Assembly: GCF_027270735.1 (NCBI RefSeq)
Contig: NZ_JAPWIJ010000003.1
Location: forward strand, 186,001-250,000
Length of the DNA: 64,000 nucleotides
Direction of reading: 5' to 3'
From: Rhodococcus ruber
GTDB lineage: Bacteria; Actinomycetota; Actinomycetes; Mycobacteriales; Mycobacteriaceae
Part shown: positions 7,190 through 42,096 of the stretch, in pieces
How the letters are laid out: each line of letters starts with the position of its first letter
Position numbering within the stretch: the first letter of the stretch is position 1
Notes under the pieces: model-generated
Seen by the model: the letters and a program-made list of their open reading frames with translations, nothing else
Told to the model about the DNA's origin: nothing
Database searches by the model: none
Position numbers and translations under genes: made by a program

Positions 7190-7969
7190 CTACACCTCGG
7201 TCACGAACGGGCTGCGGGCCACTTCCGTACCGTCCGGCAACGTCGAGATCTCGAAGTCACCGAACACGTCCGGAGCCACAGACACGAGCTTACGCAGACA
7301 TTCGACGGCGACGCGGCGAATTTCGACGTCCGCATGCTCCGAGGCACGCATCGACACGAAATGACGCCATGCGCGGTAGTTCCCGCTCACCACCACGCGT
7401 GTCTCGGTCGCGTTCGGCAGTACCGATCTCGCTGCCTGCCGCGCCTGCTTGCCGCGCAACGCGGCATTGGTGACCGACTCCAACTTGCCCTCGAGGGCAC
7501 CGAGCAGCTCGGTGTACGCCGCGCGACTGGCCTCCGTCGCGGACGCGAACAATGCTTCGAGCTCGGGGTCCCCCTCGATCGCAGGCGGCAGAACGACATT
7601 GGCGTCGTGCTCGGGAACGAAACGCTGCGAGAGCTGAGAGTAGGAGAAATGCCGGTGGCGAATCAGCTCGTGCGTGCACGACCGGGAGATACCGGTGATG
7701 TAGAAGCTCACACTCGCGTGCTCGAGCACCGAGAGGTGCCCGACGTCGAGCAGATGGCGCAGGTACGACGCATTGGTGGCAGTCCGGGGATTGGGTTTGG
7801 ACCAACTCTGGTAGCACGCACGCCCGGCGAACTCGACCAAAGCCTGTCCGCCGTCGGCGTCGGTGTCCCACGGGATGTCGGCCGGCGGTACGAATTCGGT
7901 CCGAGCAACGAGTTGCACTTTCAGCGCGACCGTTCGGGGCACCGCTCTACGTTCGATTTCTGATGACAC
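7190..7969 (-). CDS. thyX: Flavin-dependent thymidylate synthase
   Basis: Makes dTMP from dUMP using methylenetetrahydrofolate, FAD and NADPH. The signature [13 protein letters not shown] is at 104-116, and [10 protein letters not shown] and the C-terminal NYRAWRHF segment match actinobacterial ThyX. At 259 residues it is slightly longer than the M. tuberculosis protein (250). The GTG start follows TAGTGT by six bases, again a leaderless arrangement. It is divergent from a small regulator-like gene, and a TGACGTCA site lies upstream of its promoter. The gene order thyX-dapA-rnj is conserved in mycobacteria. Confidence 0.96.
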
Positions 7970-7975
7970 CGCACA

Positions 7976-7981
7976 ACACTA
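7976..7981 (-). promoter_or_regulatory. Putative -10 element of thyX (leaderless)
   Basis: TAGTGT on the minus strand, six bases before the thyX GTG. The TGACGTCA copy at 8010-8017 would sit just upstream of the matching -35 region. Confidence 0.5.
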
Positions 7982-8009
7982 AGTGTGGACCACCGCATTC
8001 GGCGACGCG

Positions 8010-8083
8010 TGACGTCATCATGGCTCGGACGACGCCACAGCAACGCCTTGACTGACGTCATTAATGACGTCACACTGGCGTCA
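8010..8083. promoter_or_regulatory. TGACGTCA operator cluster in the thyX/RHH-like gene intergenic region
   Basis: Three exact copies of the palindrome TGACGTCA (8010-8017, 8053-8060, 8065-8072) and a one-mismatch copy TGGCGTCA (8076-8083) lie in 74 bases. The middle pair forms a perfect 20-bp palindrome, TGACGTCATTAATGACGTCA (8053-8072). It sits in the spacer between a TTGACT -35 (8048-8053) and a weak CACACT -10 (8071-8076), 17 bp apart, and the last copy touches the ATG. That layout fits a repressor operator, most simply for the product of the gene it precedes. Confidence 0.7.
8048..8076 (+). promoter_or_regulatory. Putative promoter of the RHH-like gene
   Basis: TTGACT (8048-8053), a 17-bp spacer and CACACT (8071-8076, matching only the A and T of TANNNT) place the transcription start close to the ATG at 8083. 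No Shine-Dalgarno is present, so translation may be leaderless. Confidence 0.45.
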
Positions 8084-8556
8084 TGGAACTGGACAGGTAC
8101 ACCGAGTCACTACGCACCGATCTTCTTGCGGCTGCGGCCCTGGGAGACGAGCACACCCGGCAGACGGCAGAGGCCCTCGGAAAGACCGCGGAGGCCTCGG
8201 CCAGATTGATGTTGCTGACCGCGCTGTCGGATTTCGCGGCCGAGGTGTCGAACGAATTGGACGGTCACACCGTCACTGTCCGCCTCGACGGCCCCACGGC
8301 GCACGCCGATGTACGACGCGACATCCCGATTGTGGACACGGGCGTGACCGACGCACCCGAAGCCGAGGACTACCCGACGATGGACGACGTCTCCGGCGAA
8401 GTCCGACGAGTGACGCTCCGGCTGGTCGAACAGATCAAGGAACGTGCCGAGGATGCCGCCAACAACAGCGGTGTATCTCTCAATTCGTGGTTGTCACAAG
8501 CGGTTCAGGGCGCTCTGCGTGATCAGATGCGTAAGGATCGCGGCTGGAACAATTAG
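8083..8556 (+). CDS. Small protein with C-terminal ribbon-helix-helix-like segment (HicB/antitoxin-like), probable autoregulator
   Basis: A 157-residue protein. The N-terminal 65 residues are helical and Ala-rich, with a short acidic stretch around 85-105. Residues about 110-145 read RRVTLRLVEQIKERAEDA followed by NNSGVSLNSWLSQAVQGAL, the strand-helix-helix pattern of Arc/HicB-type DNA-binding domains. I cannot assign a target beyond its own promoter. The promoter carries TGACGTCA repeats phased 11-12 bp apart, suited to cooperative RHH dimers. No toxin-like partner adjoins it: thyX is divergent and zwf converges five bases away. It could be an orphan antitoxin or a stand-alone regulator. Confidence 0.7.
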   Translation: MELDRYTESLRTDLLAAAALGDEHTRQTAEALGKTAEASARLMLLTALSDFAAEVSNELDGHTVTVRLDGPTAHADVRRDIPIVDTGVTDAPEAEDYPTMDDVSGEVRRVTLRLVEQIKERAEDAANNSGVSLNSWLSQAVQGALRDQMRKDRGWNN

Positions 8557-8561
8557 GGGCG

Positions 8562-10016
8562 CTACTTCTTCTCGCGCCACTCCCGCTCGAACGGGAGCCT
8601 CCAGGCGTGTGGCGCGATGAGTTGATGAATTGCGTTGGGACCCCAGGATCCCGGTGAGTACAGGCGCACCGGAGGCGGATCTGCCAGCAACGGCTCCGAT
8701 ACCTGCCACAGCCGTTCGATGCCCTCGGCAGTGGTGAAGAGCGTGTGGTCGCCGTACATGGCGTCGAGAATCAACCGCTCATAGGCCTCGAGTACGTCGC
8801 CTGCGCGTTCGGTTTCGTGAATGGCGAACTGCATGCTGAGTTTGTCCAGGCGCATCCCGGGCCCGGGCCGCTTGCCGTAGAACGACAACGAGACCTTGGA
8901 TGCGTCGGCCAGGTCGAAGGTCAGATGATCCGGGCCTTGAGCGCCGACCCCGGAACCGGCAGGGAACATGCTCTTCGGTGGCTCTCGGAACGCTATCGAG
9001 ATGATGCGTTGGCCTTCGGCGAGACGTTTCCCGCTACGGAGGTAGAACGGCACACCGGCCCAGCGCCAGTTGTCGATTTCGCATTTGAGAGCCACGAAGG
9101 TGTCGGTGTCGGAATCGGGCGCCACTCCTTCCTCCGATCGATATCCCGTGTACTGCCCTCGCACAACGTTTTTCGGTTCCAGCGGCACCATGGACCGGAA
9201 AACCTTGTTCTTCTCTTCACTGATCGCGCGGGGCTCGAGTGCCGTCGGCGGTTCCATCGCCATGAAGGCCAGCACCTGGAACAGATGAGTGACCACCATG
9301 TCCTTGTACGCGCCGGTGGACTCGTAGAACCCTGCGCGACCGTCGAGGGCGAGCTTCTCCGGTATGTCGATCTGCACGTGATCGATGAAGTTGCGGTTCC
9401 AGATCGGCTCGAACAAGCCGTTGGCGAAACGAAACGCCAGGATGTTCTGCGCCGGTTCCTTCCCGAGAAAATGATCGATCCGGAAGATCTGGTCCTCGTC
9501 GAACGTTTCGTGCACCCGTGCATTCAAGGCGATCGCGCTCTCGCGGTCGGTGCCGAACGGCTTCTCCATGATGATCCGGGAACGCTTCACCAGATCGGCC
9601 GATGCGAGCGTATCCACCACTGCAAGTGCAGCTCTCGGCGGAACGGAGAGGTAGTGCAGTCGTTTGGCGCTTCCTCCGAGTTCGATCTCGGCCTCGGCCA
9701 CGGCCTCCCCCAGCGCCGCCGGTCCTGCCTTCTGCGACACGTAGGTCAGTCGCGAGGCGAAACGACTCCATTGCTCTTCTCCGACTTTGCGACTCGAGTA
9801 GGTGTTGATCGATTCGCGAGCGAGAGCACGGAATTCGTCGGTCGACATCTCTTCGAGCGATGTGCCGACGACGCGGATGTTCGGCGCGAGATCGGACAGT
9901 GCCAGGTGCATCATTCCGGACAGGAGTTTTCGTTTGGCCAGGTCTCCTGTCGCCCCGAACAGCACGACGACCTGGGGTGGAAGTTCGGAGGCGGTATCTG
10001 TGCGGCGCGAAGTCAC
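8562..10016 (-). CDS. zwf: Glucose-6-phosphate 1-dehydrogenase
   Basis: First step of the oxidative pentose phosphate pathway, making NADPH. The 484-residue protein has the nucleotide-binding loop [10 protein letters not shown] at 21-30, [11 protein letters not shown] from 151, and the catalytic site RIDHFLGKE at 179-187, so it is intact. The neighbours expected of the main actinobacterial pentose cluster (tkt, tal, opcA, pgl) are missing. It therefore resembles the stand-alone zwf paralogue, like zwf1 of M. tuberculosis. The GTG at 10016 was chosen by homology; no good Shine-Dalgarno precedes it, and another in-frame GTG at 10052 is possible. It follows the glycosylase gene by 47 bases. Confidence 0.9.
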
Positions 10017-38318: not shown

Positions 38319-40798
38319 GATGCCTCACTTTCGCGTGGCTCCACCGTCTGTACAGGCTCCGCCCTGCGAAGCCTGACCACTGCACCCGACTCTGCGCCGA
38401 GTGAGCGGTACACCGAGGAACCGGGCGAGTTCATCGGTACCCACACCACGTTGTCGGGTAGATCGGTTACTTTCAGCGGCAGCGTGATCGAGCCACCGTC
38501 CGTCTCGACGCTCACCCAATCACCGGCCCCTGCCCGGATCGTCGACGCCGTCGCCGCGGACAGTCGGACCGTAGGCGGGCGACCGGTCTTCGCGAGATCG
38601 TCCTCACCGTCCTGCATCCGTCCCGAATCGATGAGCATCCGCCACGTCGCCAGAATCGCCTCCCCGGGCTCGAGCGACGGCGTTTCCGCGCGCGGACTCA
38701 CTCGGGCCACGGCGATCCGCGATCCGTTCCAGCTACCCAAACGGGCCAGCTCCCTGCGCGCTGCAGCCGCGTCGGGCAGCGACAGCTCGACCCCCATCTG
38801 CTCGGCGATGGCATCGAGAACGCGTTGATCGGGCAGTACCGCGCCTGCCCCGAGTGCAGTGTCGAATGCGCGTGGTCTTCCCTCCCAGTCAACGAAGGTT
38901 CCCTGTTTGTCGACTACCGGTGCCACCGGGAACACCACGTCGGCGCGCTCGGTGACCGCGCTGTGTCGAAGTTCGAGACTGACCACGAACGCCGATCGAT
39001 CCACCGCGTCGAGCGCGGCGCGCGGATCGGGTAGATCGTCCGGGTCGATTCCAGCTGTGATCAGAACGCGATCGGGACCGGCGTCCGCCAGTATCGCGCC
39101 GGTATCGCGACCCACGTCAGCGGGAAGTTCGGCCACTCCCCACACGGCTGCCACCTCGGCGCGCGCCGACGCATCGACCACAGGCCGCCCGCCCGGCAGC
39201 ACATTCGGCAGTGTGCCGGCGTCGAGCGCGCCGCGTTCTCCTGCGCGCCGCGAAATCCACGCCAACTTTGCTCCGGTGTCGTCGGCCAACTTCGACGCTG
39301 CGGACAGTCCGCCGGAGACAGTGCCGAGCCGCTCACCGACGAGAACGATCGATCCGGGCTCGCGGAGGAGTTGGGCAATGGATTCGGTGCCTCGATCGCC
39401 GACGTGCAAGGCGTCGAGCCAGTGTGGCTCGTCGCCTGGAACCGATTGCAGCAGAACACCATCGAGTTTGCGCAGACCTCGACTGGCCCAGGGCGCGATC
39501 GAAGCCACCACCAGGCCCCGAGTACGGTGCGCCTTACGCAGTCTCAGGAACACCAGTGGCGATTCTTCCTCGGGCTCGAAGCCGACCAACACCACCACGG
39601 GGGCATCCTCGAGGTCGGTATAGGTGACTCCCAATCCGGTCCCTGCGATACGACCGGCCAGAAAGTCCGCTTCCTCTGCGCTGTGACCACGGTTTCGGAA
39701 ATCGATATCGTTGGTGTGCAGTACCGTTCGAGCGAATTTGGCGTAGGCGTACGAGTCTTCGAGGGTCGATCTTCCGCCCACGAGTACCGCCGCGCGACCG
39801 ATTGACGCGGCCAATCCGGTTGCTGCGGCCGCCAGTGCAGCCGACCACGACGTCTCGATCAATGCACCCGACTCGTCTCGGATCATCGGTGCGGTGATGC
39901 GGTCCGGCTCGGTGGCGTAATGGAACGCCCAGCGGCCCTTGTCGCAGTTCCATTCCTCGTTGACCTGCGGATCGTCGCCGGCCAGACGTCGAAGAACCTT
40001 GCCACGTCGGTGATCGGTACGTTGAGCGCAGCCGCCTGCACAGTGCTCGCACACACTCGGCGACGAGGTCAGGTCGTAGGGTCGGGCCCGGAACCGATAC
40101 TCGGTGTTCGTCAGTGCCCCCACCGGGCAGATCTGGACCGTATTTCCCGAGAAGTAGGAGTCGAACGGTTCGTTACCGAAGATGCCGACCTGTTGTACCG
40201 CACCTCGTTCGAGCAACTCGATGGACGGGTCTCCGGCAACCTGAGCTGCGAAGCGAGTGCACCGAGCGCACAGGACACAGCGTTCCCGATCGAGCAGAAC
40301 CTCGGCCGACAACGGAATCGGCTTGGGATAGGTACGTTTGGTCTCGGTGAACCTGGACTCGGTGCGGCCCGCAGCCATTGCCTGGTTCTGCAGTGGACAT
40401 TCGCCGCCCTTGTCGCACACCGGGCAATCGAGGGGGTGGTTGATGAGCAACAACTCCATGACCCCGCGCTGTGCCTTGTCCGCGACCTCCGACGTCACCT
40501 GAGTACGCACCACCATGCCGTCGGCCACCGTCGTCGTACAGGACGCCAACGGCTTGCGTTGCCCCTCGACGTCGACCAGACACTGCCGGCAGGCCCCCAC
40601 CGGATCGAGCAGCGGATGATCGCAGAAACGCGGAATCTGCACTCCCATCAACTCGGCAGCGCGAATCACCAATGTGCCCTTGGGAACAGTGACCTCGTGG
40701 TCGTCGATGGTCAATGTCACCATCTCGACCGGCGTGACCGACTGATCGGGGCTAGCAGGAGTGGAGCCTGCGGAACGACCGGGTGTCGGTGCCGTCAT
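38315..40798 (-). CDS. nuoG: NADH-quinone oxidoreductase subunit G
   Basis: An 827-residue iron-sulfur subunit. N1b cysteines are in [16 protein letters not shown], the His/Cys ligands of N5 are in [14 protein letters not shown], and N4 is in CVLCARC with CPVGAL. The extra N7-type motif CEHCAGGC with a further Cys in [10 protein letters not shown] is kept. A molybdopterin-oxidoreductase-like domain fills the rest. The ATG at 40798 overlaps the nuoF stop. Confidence 0.96.
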
Positions 40799-42096
40799 GA
40801 CGTCAGCTCCTCTGCCATCAGGGTCGATCGGTGCGGGTCGAACGGGCATCCCTGCTCGGTGACGTGACGGATGTATTCGTCGCGGAAGTACTTCAGTGAG
40901 GAGACGATGGGACTGGCGGCACCGTCTCCCAACGCGCAGAAGGACTTTCCGGCGATGCCGTCCGCGATGTCGAGCAGAGTGGTCAGGTCACCCTCGGTAC
41001 CGGTACCACCGTCGAGGCGCCTGAGGATCTGCACCAGCCAGTAGGTCCCCTCGCGGCACGGTGTGCATTTGCCGCAGGATTCGTGTGCGTAGAACTCGGT
41101 CCACCGCAACACCGCTCGCACCACACATGTCGTGTCGTCGAAGATCTGCAGTGCTTTGGTCCCCAGCATCGATCCGGCGGCACCGACGCCTTCGTAGTCG
41201 AGTGGGACATCGAGATGGTCGCCGGTGAACATCGGTGTCGAGGATCCTCCCGGCGTCCAGAACTTCAGTTCGTGTCCCGGTCTGATCCCGCCCGCGTAGC
41301 CGAGCAACTCCCGCAGCGTGATTCCCAACGGTGCCTCGTACTGGCCCGGACGGCAGACGTGGCCCGACATCGAATACAGCGTGAATCCGGGTGACTTCTC
41401 GCTGCCCATGGACCGGAACCACTCGATTCCCTTGCGCAGGATCACTGGAACGCTGGCAATGGATTCGACGTTGTTCACCACGGTCGGGCGCGCGTACAGT
41501 CCCGCCACTGCGGGGAACGGGGGCCGCAGCCGAGGTTGCCCCCGCCGACCCTCCAACGAATCGAGCAGGGCTGTCTCTTCGCCGCAGATGTACGCACCGG
41601 CCCCGGCGTGGATCACCAACTCGAGGTCGAAGCTCGATCCGAGAACGTCCTTCCCCAAATAACCCGCCGCGTAGGCCTCCGCGACCGCGGCCTGCAGCCT
41701 GCGTAGCACCGGCACCACTTCACCTCGGACGTACACGAAGGCGTGCGAAGCGCGAATTGCGTACGCGGCGATGATTATTCCCTCGACGAGCGTATGCGGA
41801 CTCGCCATCAGCAGCGGCATGTCCTTGCAGGTACCCGGCTCGGACTCGTCGGCATTGACCACCAGATAGTGCTCTTTGCCGTCGTTCTGGGGTATGAAGC
41901 TCCACTTCGTTCCGGTAGGAAAGCCCGCACCACCCCTGCCTCGTAGGCCGGATTCCTTGACGAAGGCGATGAGGTCGTCGGGGTCCATCGCGAGGGCCTT
42001 CTCGAGCCCCGCGTAGCCGTCGTGACTTCGGTAGGTGTCGAGAGTCCACGAGTCCTGCTCGTCCCAGAACTCGCTCAAGACCGGCGTCAGGGCCAT
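40795..42096 (-). CDS. nuoF: NADH-quinone oxidoreductase subunit F
   Basis: A 433-residue NADH- and FMN-binding subunit. The NADH/FMN loops are [16 protein letters not shown] and [19 protein letters not shown], and the N3 cluster ligands are in [11 protein letters not shown]. The ATG at 42096 follows the nuoE stop by one base and has a GGGGGAG site; the open frame extends further upstream within nuoE without similarity. Confidence 0.96.

Follow-up and report, generated by a model that had tools for sequence, protein, structure and literature searches.

A 64,000-nucleotide stretch of the Rhodococcus ruber genome (hereafter, the window) contains a small gene for a 157-residue ribbon-helix-helix (RHH) protein, divergent from the thymidylate synthase gene thyX, whose promoter is filled by a row of 8-bp palindromes of the form TGRYRYCA. 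The protein is very probably (roughly 85%) an autorepressor that would act by promoter occlusion, an orphan belonging to a clade that is tied to thyX. We consider self-repression very probable because the row of palindromes accompanies the gene in most of the relatives examined. Autoregulation had been offered as the simple reading in a preliminary description of the window, and comparison strongly supports it: the array travels with the gene, is absent without it, and marks the promoters of the family.

Probable operator array and promoter of the RHH gene

The preliminary description had reported three exact copies and one near copy of the palindrome within 74 bp (8010–8083). We confirmed all four positions and found a degenerate fifth box between them. 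The features of the array and of the gene that it precedes are as follows:

8053–8060, strand not applicable: box 1, TGACGTCA, exact, starting at −30 from the RHH ATG
8065–8072, strand not applicable: box 2, TGACGTCA, exact, starting at −18 from the RHH ATG
8076–8083, strand not applicable: box 3, TGGCGTCA, starting at −7, its final base being the A of the RHH ATG
8010–8017, strand not applicable: distal box, TGACGTCA, exact, at −73 from the RHH ATG and at −48 to −41 from the thyX GTG
8030–8037, strand not applicable: fifth box, CGACGCCA, degenerate, at −53; some congeners (e.g., L013) have a full box at that site
8048–8053, plus strand: −35 hexamer TTGACT, starting 35 bp before the RHH ATG
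8071–8076, plus strand: −10-like CACACT, which would make the A of the ATG the first transcribed base
8083–8556, plus strand: gene for the RHH (Arc/HicB-type) protein, 157 residues (open reading frame, Pfam HicB match, and AlphaFold2 model)

The core boxes begin at 8053, 8065, and 8076, giving a pitch of 12 and then 11 bp, and the last one touches the start codon, both as first described. Boxes 1 and 2 together form a perfect 20-bp palindrome (8053–8072). This had been placed wholly inside the 17-bp spacer of the promoter; the palindrome itself stands, but it is longer than the spacer: its first base also belongs to TTGACT and its last two bases to CACACT.

Across the window, boxes with one mismatch show no overall enrichment (42 versus 45.2 expected), as they would if the array had come together by chance in GC-rich intergenic DNA. 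Simulation contradicts this reading, however. In 200 first-order Markov windows of 64 kb, the densest 74 bp contained no exact box in 26 runs, one in 173, two in 1, and never three, and the loose form TGRYRYCA, present four times in 74 bp in the window, reached at most three, in a single run. A chance origin is also contradicted by conservation across families and refuted by the box positions in 102 homologues described below, so that its probability is negligible. The sole other exact copy in the window, at 40798 (40790–40805, TGCCGTCATGACGTCA), lies in the overlap of two minus-strand open reading frames that resemble, by eye, nuoF and nuoG (NADH dehydrogenase subunits). We rejected it as an operator; it looks like a coding coincidence.

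The −10-like CACACT matches TATAAT at three of six positions, and a consensus promoter scan of 7900–8620 called no promoter. A column profile of 102 homologues, chosen for distinct first 80 residues from 123 located loci of the same order, has T, T, and G at −35 to −33 in 96, 77, and 78% of sequences, respectively, A at −11 in 96%, and T at −7 in 98%. Because these conserved −35 and −10 positions fit a start on the A of the ATG, the RHH transcript is likely leaderless. The three core boxes would then span the promoter from the edge of the −35 hexamer to +1 and would thus suit repression by occlusion.

In the mechanism that we propose, each 8-bp box would present two inverted half-sites to the paired β-strands of a single RHH dimer. 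With boxes 11–12 bp apart, neighboring dimers would lie on almost the same side of the helix and would be expected to bind cooperatively. With the three core boxes tiling a σ70-type promoter from the −35 hexamer to the transcript start, bound protein would block RNA polymerase.

Conservation of the boxes with the gene

Within the genus, the RHH gene is carried by 31 of 37 genomes, its own included, and lies divergent from thyX in all 31 fetched loci (L001 and L005–L034). Nine loci had no tblastn placement in this comparison; in six cases, the genome itself lacks the gene. Among the 30 congeners, the boxes stay in place while the letters between them vary: 19 of the 24 core-box columns carry 1.3–2.0 bits, compared with 0.14–0.36 bit for the spacer columns at −22 to −20. 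The five looser box columns vary mostly between A and G or between C and T, the exception being the position that opens the −30 box (T in 21, C in 7, A in 1, and G in 1). Where the gene is missing the boxes are missing too, as TGRYRYCA occurs upstream of thyX (about 300 bp) in none of the six congeners that lack the RHH gene. The preliminary description had staked its reading on the motif being kept with the gene in relatives, and it is so kept.

The same arrangement extends well beyond the genus. A TGRYRYCA box with its first base at −7 is present in 85 of the 102 homologues, one starting at −18 in 79, and one starting anywhere from −31 to −28 in 69; their 300-bp upstream regions hold 325 boxes, compared with 6.0 (standard deviation 2.6) in single-base shuffles. 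Minor peaks at −50/−51, −61/−62, and −71 to −74 continue the 11-bp phase, with a gap at the −35 hexamer. Only five loci have no boxes at the core positions. In four of these (L110, L113, L119, and L129) the array sits 147–208 bp ahead of the RHH start; in the fifth (L121), the boxes are displaced by one base, the last one being degenerate. In L110, L113, and L129, but not L119, the last box of the relocated array ends at the ATG of an open reading frame of 44–46 residues that itself ends near or at the RHH start, which suggests an additional first gene of the operon.

Motif and gene thus co-occur across genera and families: each of 47 loci from Rhodococcus, Nocardia, and others has a box within 80 bp, and 46 of them have more than one. 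A phylum-wide draw contained the family in 48 of 396 genomes. Of 28 loci from this draw (27 of them outside the family of R. ruber), 19 have a box within 85 bp of the assigned start; nine have none there, some through misplaced starts, and several loci (e.g., L192, L201, and L210–L212, with L201 from the same family as R. ruber) are not cleanly set on the start codon.

We also searched the 5.86-Mb genome that contains the window. Pairs of TGACGTCA within 30 bp occur once, and the looser pattern TGRYRYCA-N2–5-TGRYRYCA occurs at four places, two of them overlapping in the array described here, one at the promoter of locus L002, and one inside locus L184; the reversed control pattern gave no match in the same genome. 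L002, on contig C21, is the only clear paralogue in this genome (37% identity, E = 2.2e-17), and its operator, TGACACCA-CGG-TGGTGTCA, stands ahead of an operon in which an RHH gene is paired with a DUF4097 gene. The pair in L184 lies in a 959-residue minus-strand open frame that appears, by eye, similar to an ATP-binding cassette (ABC) exporter. Because the paired-box search yields the promoters of both clear family members, the motif alone points to them. A generic wide regulon was rejected, as paired boxes mark just two promoters plus the one place in L184.

The RHH protein, its half-site letters, and the Toastrack partner

The preliminary description had seen an RHH-like segment at the C terminus of the protein, and this holds on the evidence of Pfam HicB similarity, an AlphaFold2 model, and structural likeness to RHH proteins. 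The modeled layout comprises a helix pair and β hairpin (residues 1–80), a disordered linker (residues 86–106), and an RHH domain (about residues 107–154) with the strand-helix-helix order and length of about 45 residues expected of that fold. Its R-x-T-L-R strand, aligned by eye, falls on the DNA-reading strand of Arc. HicB (PF05534) is the best Pfam family, scoring 20.6 bits against a gathering cut-off of 21, and 24 of 26 members of the RHH family match it at E ≤ 0.01. Residues 1–84 were modeled as helix-helix-hairpin, and a Foldseek search with the N-terminal half modeled alone gave no confident structural match. The best hit of a Protein Data Bank sequence search, to a chain named KABLE2.5, had an E value of 0.24.

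The N-terminal domain of HicB is RNase H-like. The C-terminal RHH domain of the window protein resembles Pfam HicB, but the N-terminal half looks different and no HicA gene lies beside it: the neighbors are thyX (divergent) and zwf (convergent). With no hicA adjacent, a HicAB module was rejected.

RHH repressors that bind arrays of small palindromes are already known, with MetJ and Arc as examples, so that the earlier statement that no system of this kind had been described was too strong. The window protein has its fold in common with Arc of phage P22 and with the antitoxin-type RHH repressors AtaR, KacA, and TacA, and Arc dimer sites lie about one helical turn apart, as do the boxes here. 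Unlike these proteins, it has an additional N-terminal domain of 80 residues and its RHH domain at the C terminus, and several 8-bp palindromes lie over its own start codon, with no toxin gene seen adjacent. The met boxes of MetJ are AGACGTCT at an 8-bp pitch. The likeness to MetJ lies in the 8-bp palindrome, the GACGTC core, the tandem boxes, and autoregulation; the boxes here instead follow TGRYRYCA at a pitch of 11–12 bp, with T/A rather than A/T as the outer letters.

To compare protein and operator, we sorted family members by the residue at the center of the R-x-[T/N/S]-x-R strand and read the half-sites of the two proximal boxes at 97 loci. Members with Thr have TGAC in 61% of 304 half-sites, whereas those with Asn have TGGC in 52% and TGAC in 6% of 52; members with Ser are mixed (TGGC 34% and TGAC 31% of 32). 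All 13 Asn members form a single clade on the tree, and the change to Asn and TGGC therefore represents one evolutionary event. This covariation fits, but does not prove, a direct reading of the third box base by the strand residue. A strand Thr that reads a third-base A as in the MetJ contacts would agree with the Thr/Asn pattern seen here.

The assignment of the protein to the boxes is based on comparison, and the array could in principle be the site of another, unrelated regulator that controls the RHH gene. This seems very improbable, given that the half-site letters shift by subfamily together with the residue of the DNA-reading strand, that the boxes vanish with the gene in six of six congeners and recur with it in distant families and outside the order, and that paired boxes in the genome of the window mark both family promoters and only one open-frame place besides.

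In most relatives, the RHH gene has a partner. A purpose-built profile finds a DUF4097 gene following it in 71 of the 102 homologues, and all seven examples tested exceed the Pfam cut-off for Toastrack DUF4097. Every RHH protein with such a partner (71 of 71) bears a G-W/Y/F C-terminal tail. The 31 without a partner comprise 27 orthologous genus loci, three relatives from the same family, and L058; 17 of them have no tail, and 14 retain G-W/F in forms such as RGWNN or SGF. Because the tail goes with the partner gene, these data suggest that it docks the Toastrack protein, although the partner-less cases are clustered on the tree. The window member and the 26 further orthologous genus loci in the set of 102 have no DUF4097 gene directly downstream. 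Relatives usually have an operon made up of an RHH gene and a Toastrack gene, with the tail probably docking the partner. The window member appears to have lost its partner gene and would persist as an orphan autoregulator, with its array extending to the thyX promoter region.

An RHH-Toastrack-ABC operon in Actinobacteria is mentioned in a 2024 survey of the phage-shock (PSP) response, in which Toastrack is predicted to build signaling complexes (PMC11237479). A term search of its text gave no occurrence of thyX or thymidylate, and its relevant passages name no operator or link to thyX. The paralogue L002 is of the sort described there, whereas the window member has no adjacent Toastrack gene. 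L048, a close relative of L002, has a DrrA-like ABC ATPase gene downstream of its RHH-DUF4097 pair.

The same observations raise the question of whether we are dealing with a HicB-like antitoxin, the RHH-Toastrack pair then forming a toxin-antitoxin module that shows conditional cooperativity. This would agree with HicB being the best Pfam family, with the partner gene that follows a small RHH gene in most homologues, and with the association between the C-terminal tail and the partner. We nevertheless judge it improbable, since the window gene adjoins thyX and convergent zwf rather than hicA, the N-terminal half is modeled as two helices and a hairpin, and the partner in relatives is Toastrack, the predicted builder of signaling complexes (PMC11237479). 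The findings make a role for the Toastrack partner directly testable.

A literature search of titles and abstract openings, with subscription papers thinly covered, showed nothing among the matches listed on the operator of this RHH family or its link to thyX. Judged from sequence comparison, the family-wide autoregulatory operator is real and ordinary in type, and the RHH family is uncharacterized, though widespread in Actinobacteria. The operator code, the association of Toastrack with the tail, and the old linkage to thyX are new as far as the literature was searched. The code, consisting of TGRYRYCA at −7, −18, and about −30 over a likely leaderless promoter, offers a means of locating members and targets in other genomes.

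Linkage of the RHH gene to thyX

On the other side of the array lie the following features:

7190–7969, minus strand: thyX, flavin adenine dinucleotide (FAD)-dependent thymidylate synthase (TIGR02170, E = 5e-60), divergent from the RHH gene
7976–7981, minus strand: putative −10-like TAGTGT of thyX, 6 bp before the GTG, predicted from the sequence

The linkage of the two genes is widespread. In an order-wide draw, a family member is present in 190 of 298 genomes. RHH and thyX are divergent within 3 kb in at least 105 of the 162 genomes that have both (the genome of the window included), with a median gap of 189 bp; G010, in which the RHH gene adjoins thyX, was outside the thyX searches. Divergent pairs occur in 12 of 16 families and co-directional pairs in at least two genomes. 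These adjacency counts are lower bounds, and extra copies in some genomes may be missed. We built a tree from 81 of the 102 rows, with the orthologous genus rows thinned to L001, L017, L019, L026, L033, and L034. The clade that contains the window protein (clade A) has 39 rows and a support of 100/99. Of these, 29 are divergent from thyX, 2 are co-directional with it, 2 have thyX elsewhere, and 6 are from genomes without a thyX match, so that clade A adjoins thyX in 31 of the 33 loci whose genome has it. Among the remaining 42 rows, thyX is in the locus only at L045, and none was seen in the 28 loci of the phylum-wide draw. An old link between an RHH regulator and ThyX, an enzyme of drug-target interest, is thereby exposed. 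Phage ThyX is treated elsewhere (PMC10986025).

The preliminary description had proposed that the distal box at 8010 could tie thymidylate synthesis to the regulator. Taken further, the protein might chiefly regulate thyX, and hence thymidylate supply, with autoregulation as a by-product. The divergent pairing within the order and in clade A speaks for this. So do the 8010 box, which occupies −48 to −41 relative to the thyX GTG, and the genome G041, 86% complete and without a thyX match, which has thyA, dfrA, and dapA at the site. However, box density falls with distance from the RHH start, and a box equivalent to that at 8010 (−75 to −71) is found in only 12 of the 31 genus loci. Fourteen divergent loci have a gap of at least 140 bp; in only 2 of them does a box lie 80 bp or less from the projected thyX start, and both are relocated RHH arrays. 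In 25 Nocardia loci (L151, L154–L164, L166, L167, L169–L178, and L182), the gene and boxes are kept while thyX is absent from the locus; dapA is the divergent neighbor of the RHH gene in L155 and L162, the two examined. In G049, thyX is co-directional, yet TATAGT lies about 47 bp before its start, and the linkage as a whole may be mere synteny.

We regard a protein devoted chiefly to thyX as possible but doubtful. Of the earlier proposal, the adjacency has proved widespread, whereas the 8010 box is confined to a minority of the genus loci. Because counterparts of this box are few, boxes on the thyX side are rare, and the Nocardia loci keep their boxes without thyX, a regulatory tie of the RHH protein to thyX is plausible but unproven. 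A more elaborate and rather unlikely scenario is that, throughout the order, a dedicated RHH-Toastrack clade with an operator code of its own couples thymidylate synthesis to a cytoplasmic or membrane-proximal stress signal; Toastrack on the tail would set the occupancy of the array and thereby its own and the divergent thyX-dapA operons, and the species of the window would have dropped the sensor while keeping the switch.

The G041 genes thyA, dfrA, and dapA lie beside an RHH-DUF4097 pair on contig C202 (L053 and L073), where relatives have thyX and dapA. Among the 102 fetched loci, ThyA is encoded in this one (L053).
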